This document shows, in pieces, positions 16,336-21,960 of a stretch of DNA of 21,960 nt. This DNA comes from a virus: positions 1-21,960 of the IMG/VR virus record IMGVR_UViG_3300015360_000217; one strand, written 5' to 3'. Position 1 is the first letter of the stretch; each line of letters opens with the position of its first letter. Position numbers and translations under genes: made by a program. The notes under the pieces are model-generated. The model saw only the letters and a program-made list of their open reading frames with translations, did not search any database and had not been told where the DNA came from.

Positions 16336-16694
16336 TTTTAGCAGAGTACATACACTCTAAATTGGACTTACCCTTTGCTTGGGGATCCAATGATTGTGTC
16401 ACATTCGTGCTAGGTTGGGTGGAGATACATACAGGTTGCAACCATAAATCCAGCTTGCAACCCTGGCTTTCGGAGATTGAGGCTGTTAAAGCCATTAAGG
16501 CCGCTGGTGGCTTACTCCACAAGTGCAATGAATTATTCAAGCCCGTTAACCCTTTAGCGGCTGTAGACGGGGATATTGCTTTAATAGATCGAACCGTATA
16601 TCTATTCAGTGGACCCAACATAGTGGGCCCAGGTAGTAGTGGATTAGTTTTCGATGATCGAATGAGGGTCAAATGCGCTTGGTCATATTCTTAA
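16332..16694 (+). CDS. DUF6950-type tail protein (NlpC/P60-like cysteine motif)
   Basis: A 120-residue protein starting at ATG 16332 in an ATGA overlap with the gene before; GTG 16305 (nine more residues) is possible but has no better ribosome binding site. It has the family pattern 'ILAEYIHSKLDLPFAWGSND' with the Cys directly after Asp (WGSNDC, Cys about residue 22), 'VLGWVEIHTG', 'AVDGDIALIDR' and a C-terminal 'SSGLVFDD...CAWSY'. The invariant W-G-x-x-D-C resembles the catalytic Cys region of NlpC/P60-like peptidases, and in lambda the gpK counterpart at this position is such an enzyme. Whether this short protein is active is not visible; no clear catalytic His is seen. It overlaps the tip protein gene by 22 bases. 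Confidence 0.7.
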   Translation: MILAEYIHSKLDLPFAWGSNDCVTFVLGWVEIHTGCNHKSSLQPWLSEIEAVKAIKAAGGLLHKCNELFKPVNPLAAVDGDIALIDRTVYLFSGPNIVGPGSSGLVFDDRMRVKCAWSYS

Positions 16695-19690
16695 GTCTGG
16701 CGTTACTGTCAGCACCAGCCTACGCCGACCCTGTGTCGTTGGTCACGGCCGTGTACGCCTTTTTCGTAGCTTTGACGGTTGTCGAGGTGATAGCCTTAGT
16801 CGCTGTCACCATATCCATTGCCACTACGGTTTATGGATCCAAGCAAGCCAAAAAGCAGGGTAGACGGGTTGGGGCCGGGGCCGTAGCTGAAGACCGATTT
16901 GCCACTCAGGTAACCAACGAGTCACCTCACCTGTATATATATGGCCGAGCAAGGGTCCCAGCCAGAATAGTAGCGGTGCTTACATCTGGAGCTAAGGACG
17001 AATTTAAGCATATCGTCTGTGTATTTGCCTCTCACGAATGTGATGCATTCGAGGACATATTCATAGATGGTAAGTCCTTAGGGGTCCTGGATGCTAGTGG
17101 CTTCCCTACATCAGGTGACTACGTTAGGACCGAAACCAGCTCTCGATCCCAAACTGTATCAGGGGACTCAGGTATAAAGTTTCTGAGCTTCACCCCTTCC
17201 GACCCACCCCTCTGTGTAACGACGGTCCAGAATGAGGATATCGGCTGGAATAATCAGCAGACGTTAACCCAATCAGTTCATTACACATGGAATTCTGGTG
17301 ACAACTTTATAACTGTACTGATTGATCAGGCAGGCCCTATCGAGGTTAGTGCTAATTCAGTGTCTAGCAACTCGGGCGTGAGAGTGCTGAGAAAATTGGG
17401 CCTCCCAAATCAAACCGTGGAATCTGTTACCAACTCTGAATTAGGTTCTTTATGGCCTTCTACAGCTGTGTTAGCCGACCATACTTACGCCATTGTCAGA
17501 ATAAACCTCAATTGGCCTGAATTTCAGCGAGGCCTTCCGTCCATTGACGCCTTGCTTCGAGGTAAGAAGCTTTATGATCCACGTACGGACACTTCGTACT
17601 GGAGCCGCAACAATGCATTGGCCACCTATGATTACCTAATAGGCCCAGTGTGCCAGGTGTCTTCTTCAGATATACCTCTAGCTGATCTTATTACCAGTTC
17701 TAACACATGTGATGAGGTCATACTTCCAGTTGGATTCGGAGGTCCTTCACTGATTAGAGCCCGATACACCTTTGATGGGTTGGTCAATAGTGATAGAGAT
17801 CCAAATGAGATATTAGAAGCCATGGCTGAATCCATGGCCGGATTCATAGATGCCACAACTTGGTCCATAACAGCTGGCAAGTACGTGGCCCCGGTTCTAA
17901 CCCTCAATCAGACTGATGTCGTAGGATCCTTAACCATAAATCCGGCCTTTTCGGACGCCAGTATAAGTAATGGCGTGAAAGGCCGATTCGTATCCCGTGC
18001 GGCTAATTACTTAGAGACGGAATTTAAGCCGTATCAAGACGCTGTCTACCGGGCTGCAGATGGTTATGACGTATACTTGAACCGTAACTATGAATTTACG
18101 GATGAACTATCTCGTGTACACAACCTAAACGCTATTTTAATTGAGGACATCCGTAACGGCTTCACAATTGCGGCTGAATTCAGCCATAAAGCATGGGGCA
18201 TCAAGGTTGGGCAGAGAGTGGCTATCAATATGCCATTCTTCGGGATACCTGATAACAAGGTATTCAGGGTGATTGATAAGTCGTATGGGTATAAATCCCA
18301 AGTAACCCTGACACTTAAAGAGGACGATGCCAGTATATGGGATCAATCTCCCGCTGTATTGGTGGATGCCACGCCCAATAGCAATCTGGCCAACCCGTTC
18401 TACGTAGCCCCTATTACAGGTTTGACTGGAATTAGTAACACATCTACTCTGCTGAAGAGTTCGGATGGCTCCATATCTGCTAGACTCCTGATGACTTGGA
18501 CTGCTGCAGTTACAGCGTCTGTATTCAATGGTGGAGAAATAGAGTTGGAGTGGTCCCAAGTAGGTGATACAGTGTGGACCGGCATTACTTTATCAGGTAA
18601 CTCCACCAGCGGCTACTGTGACAACGTAGTAGATGGGTATTTCTACACCGTACGCATACGTGGCGTTAATCCGTACCAGAATGTGAAGGGTGATTGGAGA
18701 ACCCACCGTCTGCAGGCCATAGGTAAATCAGCCTTGCCGGCCAACGTTGCTGGATTCACGTTTGCAAAGGTCTTTAACGGTATACAATTCACCTGGAACC
18801 CTTTAGCTGAGGTGGACTACAGTCGCAGCATTATCCATATTGAAGCTGTATGGAGCAATGCTACACCCCCTCTATTCGCCGGTCCAGGCAACAAATTCTT
18901 ATGGTACTACCCTGGGCCAGGCACTTTTACGGCCTTGATCAAACATGAAGACACCTCTGGCAACCGCAGTGCCACAGCTGCTCCAGTGACATTTACAGTC
19001 TCTATTGACAGCCTATTGTCTAGAGCTGAGAAGCCCGATATAATACTTGAGCTAGAGATCATCCTTGATGAGCAATCCGGTATAGGTGCTCGCGCCACTG
19101 CTTACGGTATAACCACTGAGAAGAGTGCTTACGATAACTCTATAACAGGCTTAGTGACGTATTTGAACAGTCTCTCACCTGCCTATACAGACCTTAATAC
19201 CGACACTGTCATAGTGGGTACAGCATTACGTACAGCCTTTTATAATGTACTCATAGCCCGCCAGGCTTTACTGAATAAGATAGCTGAAATAGCTGGCACG
19301 CGGGCCGTGTGGAACGGCGTAGGTAGTGTGCCTGCAAATATCGCCACAGCCGGAGATTCACCTGCTAACCCAATTCTAAATAGCGACCTGGTAGTTAATG
19401 CCAATGGATCCTTAAATGCGGGTTCTGGTGCACCTAATTTGGGCAGTATAGCCGGTCAGATAACATCCGGACAATTTAGCGATGACTTCTTCATCCTCAA
19501 CGCCGATGGGGACAATATCACAGTTGAAATGCGCTGGAATAGGACTGCCGGAGGTTGGGCGTCCATATACTGGGATGGCGTTAATATGACCACCAATAAG
19601 CCATTTATACCTCAACAGCTAGGCATTAATCAGATAGAAGCTAGTCTGCCCGCAACCCCCTTCGCTTATCAAGTTTGCATTGTACCATGA
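16673..19690 (+). CDS. Tail tip attachment protein, J-like, with signal-peptide-like N-terminus
   Basis: A 1005-residue protein; GAGGG (16664-16668) lies four bases before ATG 16673. Residues 1-19 (MRLVIFLSLALLSAPAYA) look like a cleavable signal peptide with an A-Y-A cut site, and residues about 28-54 form a second hydrophobic segment. From residue 65 the protein is J-like: RVGAGAVAEDRFATQVTNES, 'LYIYGRARVPARIVAVL', a baseplate-hub-like core with the 'YDPRTDTSYWSRNNALATYD' motif (a 'YDPR...w..NpAlv..d' motif typical of gpJ), then fibronectin-type III-like beta domains from about 600 to 790. The last ~165 residues contain a helical stretch (YNVLIARQALLNKIAEI) and a beta-rich end that likely contacts the receptor or fibre. 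It overlaps the glycosyltransferase gene by ATGA. Confidence 0.88.
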   Translation: MRLVIFLSLALLSAPAYADPVSLVTAVYAFFVALTVVEVIALVAVTISIATTVYGSKQAKKQGRRVGAGAVAEDRFATQVTNESPHLYIYGRARVPARIVAVLTSGAKDEFKHIVCVFASHECDAFEDIFIDGKSLGVLDASGFPTSGDYVRTETSSRSQTVSGDSGIKFLSFTPSDPPLCVTTVQNEDIGWNNQQTLTQSVHYTWNSGDNFITVLIDQAGPIEVSANSVSSNSGVRVLRKLGLPNQTVESVTNSELGSLWPSTAVLADHTYAIVRINLNWPEFQRGLPSIDALLRGKKLYDPRTDTSYWSRNNALATYDYLIGPVCQVSSSDIPLADLITSSNTCDEVILPVGFGGPSLIRARYTFDGLVNSDRDPNEILEAMAESMAGFIDATTWSITAGKYVAPVLTLNQTDVVGSLTINPAFSDASISNGVKGRFVSRAANYLETEFKPYQDAVYRAADGYDVYLNRNYEFTDELSRVHNLNAILIEDIRNGFTIAAEFSHKAWGIKVGQRVAINMPFFGIPDNKVFRVIDKSYGYKSQVTLTLKEDDASIWDQSPAVLVDATPNSNLANPFYVAPITGLTGISNTSTLLKSSDGSISARLLMTWTAAVTASVFNGGEIELEWSQVGDTVWTGITLSGNSTSGYCDNVVDGYFYTVRIRGVNPYQNVKGDWRTHRLQAIGKSALPANVAGFTFAKVFNGIQFTWNPLAEVDYSRSIIHIEAVWSNATPPLFAGPGNKFLWYYPGPGTFTALIKHEDTSGNRSATAAPVTFTVSIDSLLSRAEKPDIILELEIILDEQSGIGARATAYGITTEKSAYDNSITGLVTYLNSLSPAYTDLNTDTVIVGTALRTAFYNVLIARQALLNKIAEIAGTRAVWNGVGSVPANIATAGDSPANPILNSDLVVNANGSLNAGSGAPNLGSIAGQITSGQFSDDFFILNADGDNITVEMRWNRTAGGWASIYWDGVNMTTNKPFIPQQLGINQIEASLPATPFAYQVCIVP

Positions 19691-20955
19691 TCTCAGTCTT
19701 CACACCTGTCCATGCAAAGGCCGCGCCATTTTTACAGGCGACGTACGAATCCCTATGTGCTCAAACATTTGCGGATTGGGAATGGGTGGTGGTCACCAAT
19801 GCGGGCGGATGTATACCTGAAGACATAGCAGCTGATTTGCGTGTGAAGATATTCCCAGCGGACGATGATCAAGGTTACCCTCACAACTTTATCGGCAGAC
19901 TGAAGGGCTTTGCCTGTAGTAAGGCTACGGGCGAGATACTTGTAGAGCTGGATGCGGATGACTTACTGACCTCCAATGCCTTGCATGAGATTAGCCTGGC
20001 TTTTCAAGACTCTGCCGTGGCCATGGTCTACTCCAACAGTGCTGAATTTAAGGATGGTACGTGGGAGCCCAATACTTACTCTGAGCACTTTGGGTGGAGA
20101 ACCAGGCCCTTCTTCTATAAGGGGCACGCTCTTATTGAGATGCTGGGCTGGCCAGTGAGTGCCCAAATGATGAGGCAAATTTTCTGGGCGCCGAATCATG
20201 TCAGGGCTTGGAGGACTTGTGCGTATCACGCACTGGGCGGGCACAATCAGACCATTAAGACGGGTGATGACCACGACCTGTGCTGTAGGTTCTACATTGC
20301 CCACGGCGAGCGCGGCGTCAAGCACATTGACAAGTGTCTGTATGTATACCGAGTCCACGCTGAGAACTCCTGTGCAACGGCCAACGGAGAGGTGCAATTG
20401 CAAACGGCTGCCAACTACATGCGATATCGAGTTGATATGGCTATTCGGTGGGCCCACGACAAGGGTTTAGACCTCATAGACATTGGGGGCAGACTGAACG
20501 CTTTGCCAGGGTTCACCACCGTAGACCTGTTTGATGCTGACATTACAGCAGATTTGAATGGTAAATGGCCGTTCGAAGACAGTACTGTAGGAGTCCTTCG
20601 TTGCTCACATGTGTTAGAGCACTTGAAGGACCCTGTGCACTCCATGAACGAGGCATTCAGAGTGCTAGCCCCAGGTGGTTGGATGTTTATTGAAGTACCC
20701 TCTACGGATGGGCGAGGGGCCTTCCAAGACCCTACGCATGTGTCCTTTTGGAACTCTAATTCCATGTGGTACTATACAAGTGAAGAGTTCTCTCGCTTTG
20801 TGCCTGCATTTAAGGGTCGCTTCCAAAACAGCCTAACAGTCAACTATTTCCCAGGTCAATTCGAGCAGGATCACAACATAGTAGTGGTACAAGCCGACTT
20901 GATTGCTGTAAAAGGCAGCTACGCCCTTCGGCCCGTTGGACAAGTGCTGATTTAA
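19687..20955 (+). CDS. Fused glycosyltransferase (GT2) and SAM methyltransferase-like protein
   Basis: A 422-residue, two-domain protein from ATG 19687, in an ATGA overlap with the tip gene (a TTG at 19675 would add four residues). Residues 1-~225 form a family-2 glycosyltransferase: ISVFTPVHAKAAPFL start, 'LCAQTFADWEWVVV' acceptor of the Rossmann strand, 'GEILVELDADDLL' with the D-x-D metal motif at D89-D91, and TGDDHDL (192-198) where the catalytic acid is expected. Residues about 261-385 resemble class I methyltransferases: a degenerate glycine motif (LIDIGGRLNALPGF, lacking GxGxG), 'TVDLFDADITADLNGKWPF', then 'CSHVLEHLKDPVHSMNEAFR', 'VLAPGGWMFIEVPS' and 'DPTHVSF'. This is the 'vLEHl.dp...l.e..RvLkPGG' pattern. 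The substrate is unknown. Overlap with the tip gene and adjacency to the fibre suggest it acts during late assembly. Confidence 0.85.
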   Translation: MISVFTPVHAKAAPFLQATYESLCAQTFADWEWVVVTNAGGCIPEDIAADLRVKIFPADDDQGYPHNFIGRLKGFACSKATGEILVELDADDLLTSNALHEISLAFQDSAVAMVYSNSAEFKDGTWEPNTYSEHFGWRTRPFFYKGHALIEMLGWPVSAQMMRQIFWAPNHVRAWRTCAYHALGGHNQTIKTGDDHDLCCRFYIAHGERGVKHIDKCLYVYRVHAENSCATANGEVQLQTAANYMRYRVDMAIRWAHDKGLDLIDIGGRLNALPGFTTVDLFDADITADLNGKWPFEDSTVGVLRCSHVLEHLKDPVHSMNEAFRVLAPGGWMFIEVPSTDGRGAFQDPTHVSFWNSNSMWYYTSEEFSRFVPAFKGRFQNSLTVNYFPGQFEQDHNIVVVQADLIAVKGSYALRPVGQVLI

Positions 20956-20956
20956 T

Positions 20957-21960
20957 ATGGCCACCCTATACGTCCGTAATGCGGCAAACACTGCCTGGAT
21001 AACCATTGGCGGTGCGCAAGGTCCTCAAGGATTCCAAGGCCCCCAAGGATTCCAAGGGTTTACGGGTGTCCAGGGTCCACAAGGTATTACGGGTAACCAA
21101 GGCTCTCAAGGTTTGATTGGTGTCCAAGGCTCGCAAGGTCAGCAGGGCACGGGTGAAGAGGGTCCACAAGGTACTCAAGGTAACCAGGGCCCTCAGGGCC
21201 AGAGTGGTAACCAGGGCTCGCAAGGTCAGCAGGGCACGGGTGCACAGGGTCCACAAGGCACTCAAGGTGACCAAGGCTCTCAAGGTCTGATTGGTGTCCA
21301 AGGCTCGCAAGGTCAGCAGGGCACGGGTGAAGAGGGTCCACAAGGTACTCAAGGTAACCAAGGCCCTCAGGGCCAGAGTGGTAACCAGGGCTCGCAAGGT
21401 CAGCAGGGCACGGGTGCACAGGGTCCACAAGGTAACCAAGGGGCCCTTGGGGCTACAGGTATAAATTACAGAGGTAACTGGGCTAACACTGCCTACGCGG
21501 TGAATGATGCCGTCGCCTCTGCTGGAACCACATATATTTGCATACTGGCTCACACTAATTTCGTACCTCCAAACGCCACTTATTGGAACGTCCTGTCTTT
21601 GCAAGGGACTCAGGGCTCTCAAGGTAATCAGGGCAACAATGGCAGCCAAGGCAACCAAGGCCAGACCGGCCAGCAAGGCTCGCCTGGACAACAGGGTAGC
21701 CAGGGCCTTAAAGGTACCCAGGGCAACAATGGCAGCCAAGGTAACCAAGGTCAAACCGGTCAGCAAGGCTCGCCTGGACAACAGGGTAGCCAGGGCCTTA
21801 AAGGTACCCAGGGCAACCCAGGCTTTCAAGGCAACCAAGGTCAAACCGGCCAGCAAGGCTCGCCTGGACAACAGGGTAGCCAGGGCCTTAAAGGTGCCCA
21901 GGGCAACCCAGGCTTTCAAGGTACCCAAGGCAACGCCGGAAGCCAGGGTAATAATGGACC
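20957..21960 (+). CDS. Collagen-like (Gly-X-Gln) tail fibre protein, 3' partial
   Basis: The frame from ATG 20957, one base after the previous stop, stays open to the window edge: 334 whole codons plus two bases, so the gene continues. A short head (MATLYVRNAANTAWITIGG, residues 1-19) may attach to the tip. It is followed by Gly-X-Y triplets, most with Gln in the third place (GPQ, GFQ, GSQ, GNQ), broken by GTGEEG and similar. Residues about 168-216 leave the triplets: YRGNWANTAYAVNDAVASAG, TYICILAHTNFVPP and YWNVLS, a carbohydrate-binding-like module (family 5/12 type). Triplets then restart. Such repeats form trimeric collagen-like rods in phage fibres. No strong ribosome binding site is seen. 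An antisense frame over the same bases is a shadow caused by the repeat composition. Confidence 0.88.
   Translation, partial: MATLYVRNAANTAWITIGGAQGPQGFQGPQGFQGFTGVQGPQGITGNQGSQGLIGVQGSQGQQGTGEEGPQGTQGNQGPQGQSGNQGSQGQQGTGAQGPQGTQGDQGSQGLIGVQGSQGQQGTGEEGPQGTQGNQGPQGQSGNQGSQGQQGTGAQGPQGNQGALGATGINYRGNWANTAYAVNDAVASAGTTYICILAHTNFVPPNATYWNVLSLQGTQGSQGNQGNNGSQGNQGQTGQQGSPGQQGSQGLKGTQGNNGSQGNQGQTGQQGSPGQQGSQGLKGTQGNPGFQGNQGQTGQQGSPGQQGSQGLKGAQGNPGFQGTQGNAGSQGNNG
21072..21432 (+). repeat. Tandem 174-bp duplication within the collagen-like gene
   Basis: Two nearly identical 174-bp units lie head to tail: for example 'ggctctcaag' starts at 21101 and again at 21275, and 'gggtccacaagg' at 21247 and 21421. 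Only a few substitutions separate them (such as TTT/TCT in the codon after CAAGGT). 174 is 58 codons, so the duplication keeps the frame and lengthens the rod. Confidence 0.9.
21631..21930 (+). repeat. 90-bp tandem repeats within the collagen-like gene
   Basis: Units beginning at 21631, 21721, 21811 and 21901 share the core 'cagcaaggctcgcctggaca' (starting near 21671, 21761, 21851). The period is 90 bp (30 codons, ten triplets), so frame is kept. The copies are almost identical at DNA level, which points to recent expansion or ongoing homogenisation. The fourth copy continues past the window. Confidence 0.9.

Follow-up and report, generated by a model that had tools for sequence, protein, structure and literature searches.

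A glycosyltransferase-methyltransferase fusion linked to collagen-like genes in phages and bacteria, a candidate collagen-modifying enzyme

Introduction

Many phages and bacteria carry collagen-like fibres, mostly without the hydroxyproline by which animal collagen is stabilised, and little has been established about how such fibres are finished. This question is raised by a 21,960-base linear virus record from IMG/VR (IMGVR_UViG_3300015360_000217; its whole length is referred to as the window), in which one gene encodes a glycosyltransferase joined to a methyltransferase-like domain (the fusion) and stands between a tail tip gene and a collagen-like fibre gene. What does this enzyme modify? 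A preliminary description of the window had proposed sugar addition followed by O-methyl capping, either on the fibre or on the tube insert, with modification of host surface sugars as the main alternative. From the conservation of the gene and its neighbourhoods in phages and bacteria, we consider that the fusion is probably a dedicated modifying enzyme of the collagen-like fibre encoded directly after it.

Results

The fusion gene is tightly packed between tip and fibre genes

The window carries a siphophage-like late region with terminase, portal, major head, tube, tape measure, distal tail and tip genes. At its right end three genes follow each other in this order:

16673..19690, + strand: tail tip/fibre gene (PHROG 5616 tail fiber, 2.2e-45); overlaps the fusion gene by ATGA
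19687..20955, + strand: GT2-methyltransferase fusion gene, 422 amino acids (aa); intact open reading frame (ORF), Pfam GT2 and Methyltransf_11, full-length homologues in phages and bacteria
20957..21960 (end of the window), + strand: collagen-like fibre gene of the G-X-Q type (Pfam Collagen 3.5e-40; PHROG 5073 tail fiber 4.8e-73)

The ATG of the fusion overlaps the stop codon of the tip gene (ATGA, 19687-19690), and a single base separates its TAA (20953-20955) from the fibre ATG at 20957, exactly as first noted. No promoter- or terminator-like site above shuffled expectation was found at the tip/fusion/fibre junctions. The fibre gene is cut by the contig end, and the C-terminus of the fibre lies outside the window.

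Both halves of the fusion carry plausible active sites

The following elements were distinguished in the fusion protein, with conservation scored in 86 homologues:

19687..20451, + strand: GT-A glycosyltransferase domain, about residues 1-255 (Pfam PF00535; K4CP best in Foldseek and profile searches)
19945..19962, + strand: E-L-D-A-D-D metal/nucleotide-sugar motif, residues 87-92 (E87, D89, D91 and D92 in 86/86)
20266..20271, + strand: D194-D195, candidate catalytic-base region (both invariant, 86/86)
20452..20955, + strand: class I S-adenosylmethionine (SAM) methyltransferase-like domain, about residues 256-422 (Pfam PF08241/PF13489; PHROG 6636 methyltransferase)
20476..20526, + strand: SAM-binding loop and second acidic residue, IDIGGRLNALPGFTTVD, residues 264-280 (residue 265 D/E in 86/86, D280 in 86/86)
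20617..20739, + strand: methyltransferase motifs E311-H312 and P338-S-T-D-G-R-G-A-F-Q-D-P-T-H351 (key residues in 86/86)

The N-terminal half matched Pfam Glycos_transf_2 (PF00535) over residues 3-145 with an E value of 2.4e-10 (41 bits against a curated cut-off of 23.3). An AlphaFold2 model of the fusion (86 homologues) reached a predicted local distance difference test score (pLDDT) of 96.3 and a predicted template modelling score (pTM) of 0.93 across both domains. When this model was compared with known structures using Foldseek, the best match was the chondroitin polymerase K4CP (E 7.5e-14), followed by TarS, SpsA and other GT-A enzymes, and a family profile search also ended at K4CP, over its residues 376-612 (E 7.8e-23), a stretch that holds the glucuronosyltransferase half of that enzyme. 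The Pfam match and the D-x-D within E87-L-D89-A-D91-D92, whose acidic positions are invariant in these diverse homologues, place this half among the GT2 glycosyltransferases as first described, and the predicted fold is that of the GT-A type. As in other GT2 enzymes, D194-D195 would presumably take part in catalysis. One relative (L045:8001-8774) is a stand-alone glycosyltransferase of 257 aa that lacks the methyltransferase half; a collagen-like gene lies about 2.3 kb away from it.

In the C-terminal half, Methyltransf_11 was detected at residues 288-335 (E 1.9e-8, 35.3 bits against a cut-off of 21.2), as was Methyltransf_23 (34.0 bits against 27.0), so that the methyltransferase-like domain of the preliminary description lies above the curated Pfam cut-offs. 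PF08241 was detected in 66 and PF13489 in 55 of the 86 homologues, and D280, E311, H312, P338, S339, G344, D348, P349, H351 and Y362 were invariant in all of them. Solved methyltransferases matched this half weakly (best E 3.1e-5, with a D-glucose O-methyltransferase at E 1.3e-3), too weakly to point to a particular methyl acceptor. The structure check that had been suggested for both active sites, carried out on the model together with residue conservation, thus yielded two plausible sites.

Collagen-like genes accompany the enzyme in phages

A scan of IMG/VR returned 44 relatives of the fusion with 37-71% identity, and a viral profile scan at least 540 confirmed candidates. A bacterial genome collection contained 213 confirmed relatives, the best 80 of which were 38-68% identical; they came from Streptomyces, Frankia, Acidimicrobiaceae, Thiothrix and other proteobacteria, planctomycetes and Bacteroidota. 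Nearly all relatives were full glycosyltransferase-methyltransferase fusions. In the tree, the actinobacterial and proteobacterial chromosomal clades stood apart from the phage clades, and the window fell in a supported group of 17 that was almost wholly viral.

In most members of the window clade the fibre started 0-10 bases downstream of the enzyme, and the fibres of this clade share an N-terminus of the type MAxLKIRNexNTGWYxxGaQGPQG. Beyond tip parts, and one tail protein in L046, no further window gene was conserved in the examined flanks of the window-clade contigs, the GC content of which ranged from 0.36 to 0.57. Because GC content varies and the flanks are not shared, the enzyme-fibre pair appears to travel between different phages. 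Were the eight contigs independent, which they are not fully, adjacency by chance would have a probability of about 1e-7. We rejected chance adjacency as an explanation, since the arrangement recurs in distant relatives with different surroundings and is enriched in bacteria.

For linkage across the whole family, 66 of 87 clusters at 80% identity could be scored. A collagen-like gene lay within 1.5 kb of the enzyme in 41 of these and within 8 kb in 13 more, and none was in view in the remaining 12. The collagen gene was found on the same strand upstream in 25 clusters and downstream in 15, with at least five side changes on the tree; as the side of the collagen gene switches, linkage has been kept though gene order has not. 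Where the enzyme does not adjoin collagen, all nine checked virus records of at least 115 kb carried collagen genes elsewhere, and the records without any were all shorter than 112 kb. Two collagen-like genes occur in the cyanophage S-CRM01, the only annotated phage with the full fusion. Of eight further T4-like cyanophages with no match to the fusion, seven were without collagen-like genes and P-SSM2 had weak ones.

Chromosomal copies lie near secreted collagen-like proteins

In 37 bacterial genomes with 39 copies of the enzyme, 32 copies lay within 6 kb of a Pfam Collagen match among the matches listed, where random placement would give 0.19, both figures being approximate and to that extent a weakness of the case. 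Five of the remaining seven copies showed a G-X-Y ORF nearby on direct reading. In Streptomyces the enzyme was present in 6 of 81 genomes and a collagen match in 58 of 81, from which we conclude that it is the enzyme that optionally accompanies collagen, rather than collagen the enzyme. The chromosomal copies have secreted collagen-like proteins nearby, with no phage tail and no tip gene beside them, and therefore a collagen-like protein is the best-supported substrate. None of the few bacterial neighbourhoods inspected by eye resembled a polysaccharide locus. The search for co-occurrence, which had been set beforehand as a check, accordingly found collagen-like genes as neighbours of the enzyme in most phage clades and on bacterial chromosomes.

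The fibre is rich in glutamine, a trait that is not specific to enzyme-linked collagens

Gln occupied the Y position in 59 of the 87 triplets of the window fibre, and Ser or Thr stood at X or Y 35 times (27 at X, 8 at Y). The 334 residues include 95 Gly, 77 Gln, 28 Asn, 25 Thr and 20 Ser, in agreement with the earlier reading of a Gly-X-Gln fibre rich in Ser, Thr, Asn and Gln. One further element was seen in the fibre:

21482..21565, + strand: CBM_5_12-like insert between two collagen blocks (weak: Pfam 2.8e-4, 21.3 bits, below the cut-off of 26.2)

We also considered Gln at Y as a general mark of enzyme-linked collagens and rejected it, since viral G-X-Q collagens taken at random contained just as much Gln where the enzyme was absent. 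In Streptomyces, the collagens linked to the enzyme were rich in Gln and those not linked to it were not, with many of the matches there being spurious GC-rich frames. Most G-X-Q phage collagens had no such enzyme in the stretches that were inspected, which indicates that modification is optional.

Discussion

A proposed role in fibre modification and its alternatives

How might the fusion act on the fibre? Late in infection, tip, enzyme and fibre would be made from one overlapping gene set. The glycosyltransferase domain would then move sugar from a host nucleotide-sugar to hydroxyl side chains of the fibre, most likely those of Ser and Thr, before the triple helix closes, after which the methyltransferase domain would methylate the sugar (or, less likely, the protein) to form a cap. 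The resulting glycosylated and partly methylated triple helix might gain in stiffness and hydration and resist proteases better, and it could present a changed surface chemistry for adsorption or to antibodies.

Several observations weigh against this proposal. Its support consists of linkage, conserved active sites and a structure model, which speak of association and not of activity, and counts of relatives do not represent independent events. Of about 95 Gln-rich IMG/VR collagen genes drawn by pattern, about 3 had the fusion or a related glycosyltransferase within the stretch examined, a value that is a lower bound because the flanking stretches were often short on one side. Judged from these sequences, a Gln-rich Y position is a general trait of phage collagens and uninformative on the enzyme, and in some collagens beside the enzyme Thr is scarce at Y, which leaves no one residue marked out as the acceptor. 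The SAM-loop glycines are partly degenerate among the 86 homologues (G or C at 267, G or A at 268). Finally, in a freshwater T4-like clade no collagen gene was found near the enzyme, and genes for a DegT aminotransferase, a GT1, an epimerase, a hexapeptide-transferase and a methyltransferase lay within a few kb.

Because of these sugar genes, a polysaccharide role is possible in the freshwater T4-like clade. As a general explanation, namely that the enzyme acts on polysaccharide of the host surface (or on a phage-directed glycan) so that superinfection is blocked or the receptor altered, and that it stands near the fibre gene because both serve adsorption, we consider it unlikely. The similarity of the glycosyltransferase domain to the polysaccharide and teichoic-acid enzymes K4CP, TarS and TuaG would fit such a role, as would an RmlD gene just upstream of the fusion in L040. 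Chromosomal homologues, however, adjoin collagen-like genes in neighbourhoods unlike polysaccharide loci where these were inspected, sugar genes were near the enzyme only in the freshwater T4-like clade, and even there the long records carry collagen genes elsewhere. Beside the fusion the window shows neither a membrane segment nor a lipid-carrier enzyme: where a seroconversion-type system acting on host polysaccharide would have a flippase or membrane glycosyltransferase or sugar-synthesis genes as neighbours, the window has tail genes and a collagen fibre. The pattern that had been named as arguing against fibre modification, homologues that are regularly remote from fibre genes and close to polysaccharide genes, was thus absent from the family as a whole and partly present in the freshwater T4-like clade, which stands among sugar-metabolism genes. 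It is also quite improbable that one domain is catalytically dead, so that the fusion would only glycosylate collagen and its methyltransferase-like domain would have a structural part. The variable SAM loop and the weak matches to solved methyltransferases would be explained in this way, but a dead domain would not need the acidic residue 265 (D/E) nor D280, E311, H312, P338, S339, G344, D348, P349 and H351, all of which are conserved across phages and bacteria.

The remaining alternative concerns other virion proteins, and here a part of the tip has to be considered:

19388..19690, + strand: C-terminal domain of the tip, about 100 aa, directly 5' of the fusion in the window clade

This domain ends in LGINNISATEPxxPFAxQVW and is conserved just ahead of the fusion, forming the tail of the tip in some phages and a separate gene of 183-187 aa in others (L004:2598-3161, L005:5693-6256, L006:7444-7995). 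Its presence before the fusion in many window-clade members, the translational overlap with the tip gene, and the phage-encoded glycosylation of capsid and tail-tube proteins reported for Che8 and Corndog (Freeman 2023, as quoted in PMC12619734) would be in line with modification of the tip or of the tail tube. Nevertheless, collagen stays linked to the enzyme outside the window clade despite different surroundings, and the bacterial copies next to secreted collagen-like proteins have no adjoining tip gene; we therefore regard this possibility as very unlikely. The tail tube itself is not supported as a target: no linkage of the enzyme to tube genes was seen, and the chromosomal copies lack a tube. 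Hence, of the two substrates first proposed, the collagen-like fibre was retained on account of the linkage in phages and bacteria, and the tube insert found no support.

Neighbouring genes suggest a larger collagen-modifying set

Outside the window clade, the commonest neighbours of the fusion were DUF6445 and 2-oxoglutarate-Fe(II) (2OG-Fe(II)) oxygenases. The following genes illustrate this, along with a further type that combines GT2 and TPR domains:

L021:7360-7989, L162:6999-7979, L058:2839-3825 and others: DUF6445 genes beside the fusion
L026:9877-10470, L143:9239-9850, L162:11700-12287: 2OG-FeII_Oxy_3 genes near the fusion
L116:9255-10370, L120:9265-10380, L092:9331-10830: GT2-TPR genes adjoining the fusion in Streptomyces

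DUF6445 genes lay within 1.5 kb of the fusion in 22 of the 87 clusters, abutting or overlapping its start in many large phages and standing 82 bases off in Thiothrix. The DUF6445 members have a common H-x-D-x-Q ... H-(S/A)-A ... R-L pattern, by which we consider them putative Fe(II)/2-oxoglutarate dioxygenases; a comparison of DUF6445 with solved structures gave no match. Collagen-like genes were close by at two of the three 2OG-FeII_Oxy_3 loci, and the products of these genes are possible candidates for collagen hydroxylases. The GT2-TPR genes, whose product we take to resemble SunS, were 7-83 bases from the fusion in the three Streptomyces loci, and in several large phages they were fused to DUF6445 (for instance L176:6271-7989). 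The DUF6445 and GT2-TPR neighbours suggest that the genes for collagen modification form a larger set, which the window would have in its smallest version. It is conceivable, if somewhat doubtful, that phages and bacteria have in common a prokaryotic collagen-modification system, in which a hydroxylase (DUF6445 or 2OG-FeII_Oxy_3), GT2-TPR and the GT2-methyltransferase would carry out successive hydroxylation, glycosylation and methyl capping of G-X-Q/T collagen, with the window phage as a minimal enzyme-plus-fibre form. If true, such a system would parallel the lysine hydroxylation and glycosylation of animal collagen.

The RmlD gene directly upstream of the fusion in L040 (L040:6088-7026) belongs to the dTDP-rhamnose pathway, a hint that dTDP-rhamnose could be the donor in that phage. 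Elsewhere in the window, positions 1-205 hold an array of the 7-base unit CGAAGTC with higher-order periods of 22 and 79 bases, which reads as SEVRSPK-like repeats, and positions 692-2659, upstream of the terminase, encode a protein of 655 aa that matched no PHROG and matched Pfam only weakly; judged by eye, it is possibly a beta-helix tailspike.

A fused enzyme that accompanies collagen-like genes in several bacterial phyla and many phages gives a definite candidate enzyme for the glycosylation of prokaryotic collagen, and the two-gene pair of enzyme and fibre is small enough for direct expression and assay. If the proposed role is correct, it would offer a simple route to glycosylated recombinant collagen.

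Comparison with known systems

Collagen of Mimivirus, a eukaryotic giant virus, follows a hydroxylysine chemistry and is served by enzymes with an architecture different from that of the fusion. This virus is reported to modify its own collagen by hydroxylation and glycosylation (PMC8968730, PMC9546862). In the exosporium of Bacillus anthracis and B. cereus, BclA is described as a densely glycosylated, collagen-like surface stalk, the glycan being an oligosaccharide that ends in anthrose and is made by other enzymes, and the portion of that source consulted reports no glycosyltransferase-methyltransferase fusion beside the gene (PMC10050317). The mycobacteriophages Che8 and Corndog are similar to the present proposal in that a phage-encoded glycosyltransferase acts on virion proteins; according to the quoted passages, the targets are the C-termini of capsid and tail-tube proteins rather than a collagen fibre, and the glycosylated virions are shielded against anti-phage responses (Freeman 2023, quoted in PMC12619734). 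A model of the Che8 glycosyltransferase was among the BFVD structure matches of the fusion, at rank 28.

Recombinant collagens of E. coli prophages were not glycosylated (PMC3368898), which fits optional modification. Glycosylated threonine has been described as a collagen stabiliser (Bann 2000, as cited in PMC3368898), and the literature on its part in collagen stability held no direct phage data. No earlier report of the fusion together with collagen was found in the open literature searched, which is not proof of novelty. Among annotated phages the family is represented by gp90 of the Synechococcus phage S-CRM01, a full-length relative with 40.9% identity that is annotated only as methyltransferase/glycosyl transferase; unlike in the window, it is encoded about 50 kb from the collagen-like genes that this phage also has.

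The nearest tested system, by analogy, would be SgtA of Clostridioides difficile. SgtA is encoded immediately upstream of bclA3, is metal-dependent and initiates O-glycosylation of the G-X-Y region of BclA3, adding beta-O-GlcNAc to Thr, and also Ser, of collagen-region peptides (PMC7157674). No methyltransferase fusion has been described for SgtA, and we liken it to the fusion by gene order and described activity, not by sequence. Moreover, BclA3 belongs to the spore coat and has GPT acceptor triplets, whereas the window fibre belongs to the virion and has mostly GXQ triplets with scattered Thr and Ser. In both cases, however, a glycosyltransferase gene adjoins a collagen-like gene, and this arrangement is conserved across the relatives of the fusion (41 of 66 clusters, and 32 of 39 bacterial copies among the matches listed).
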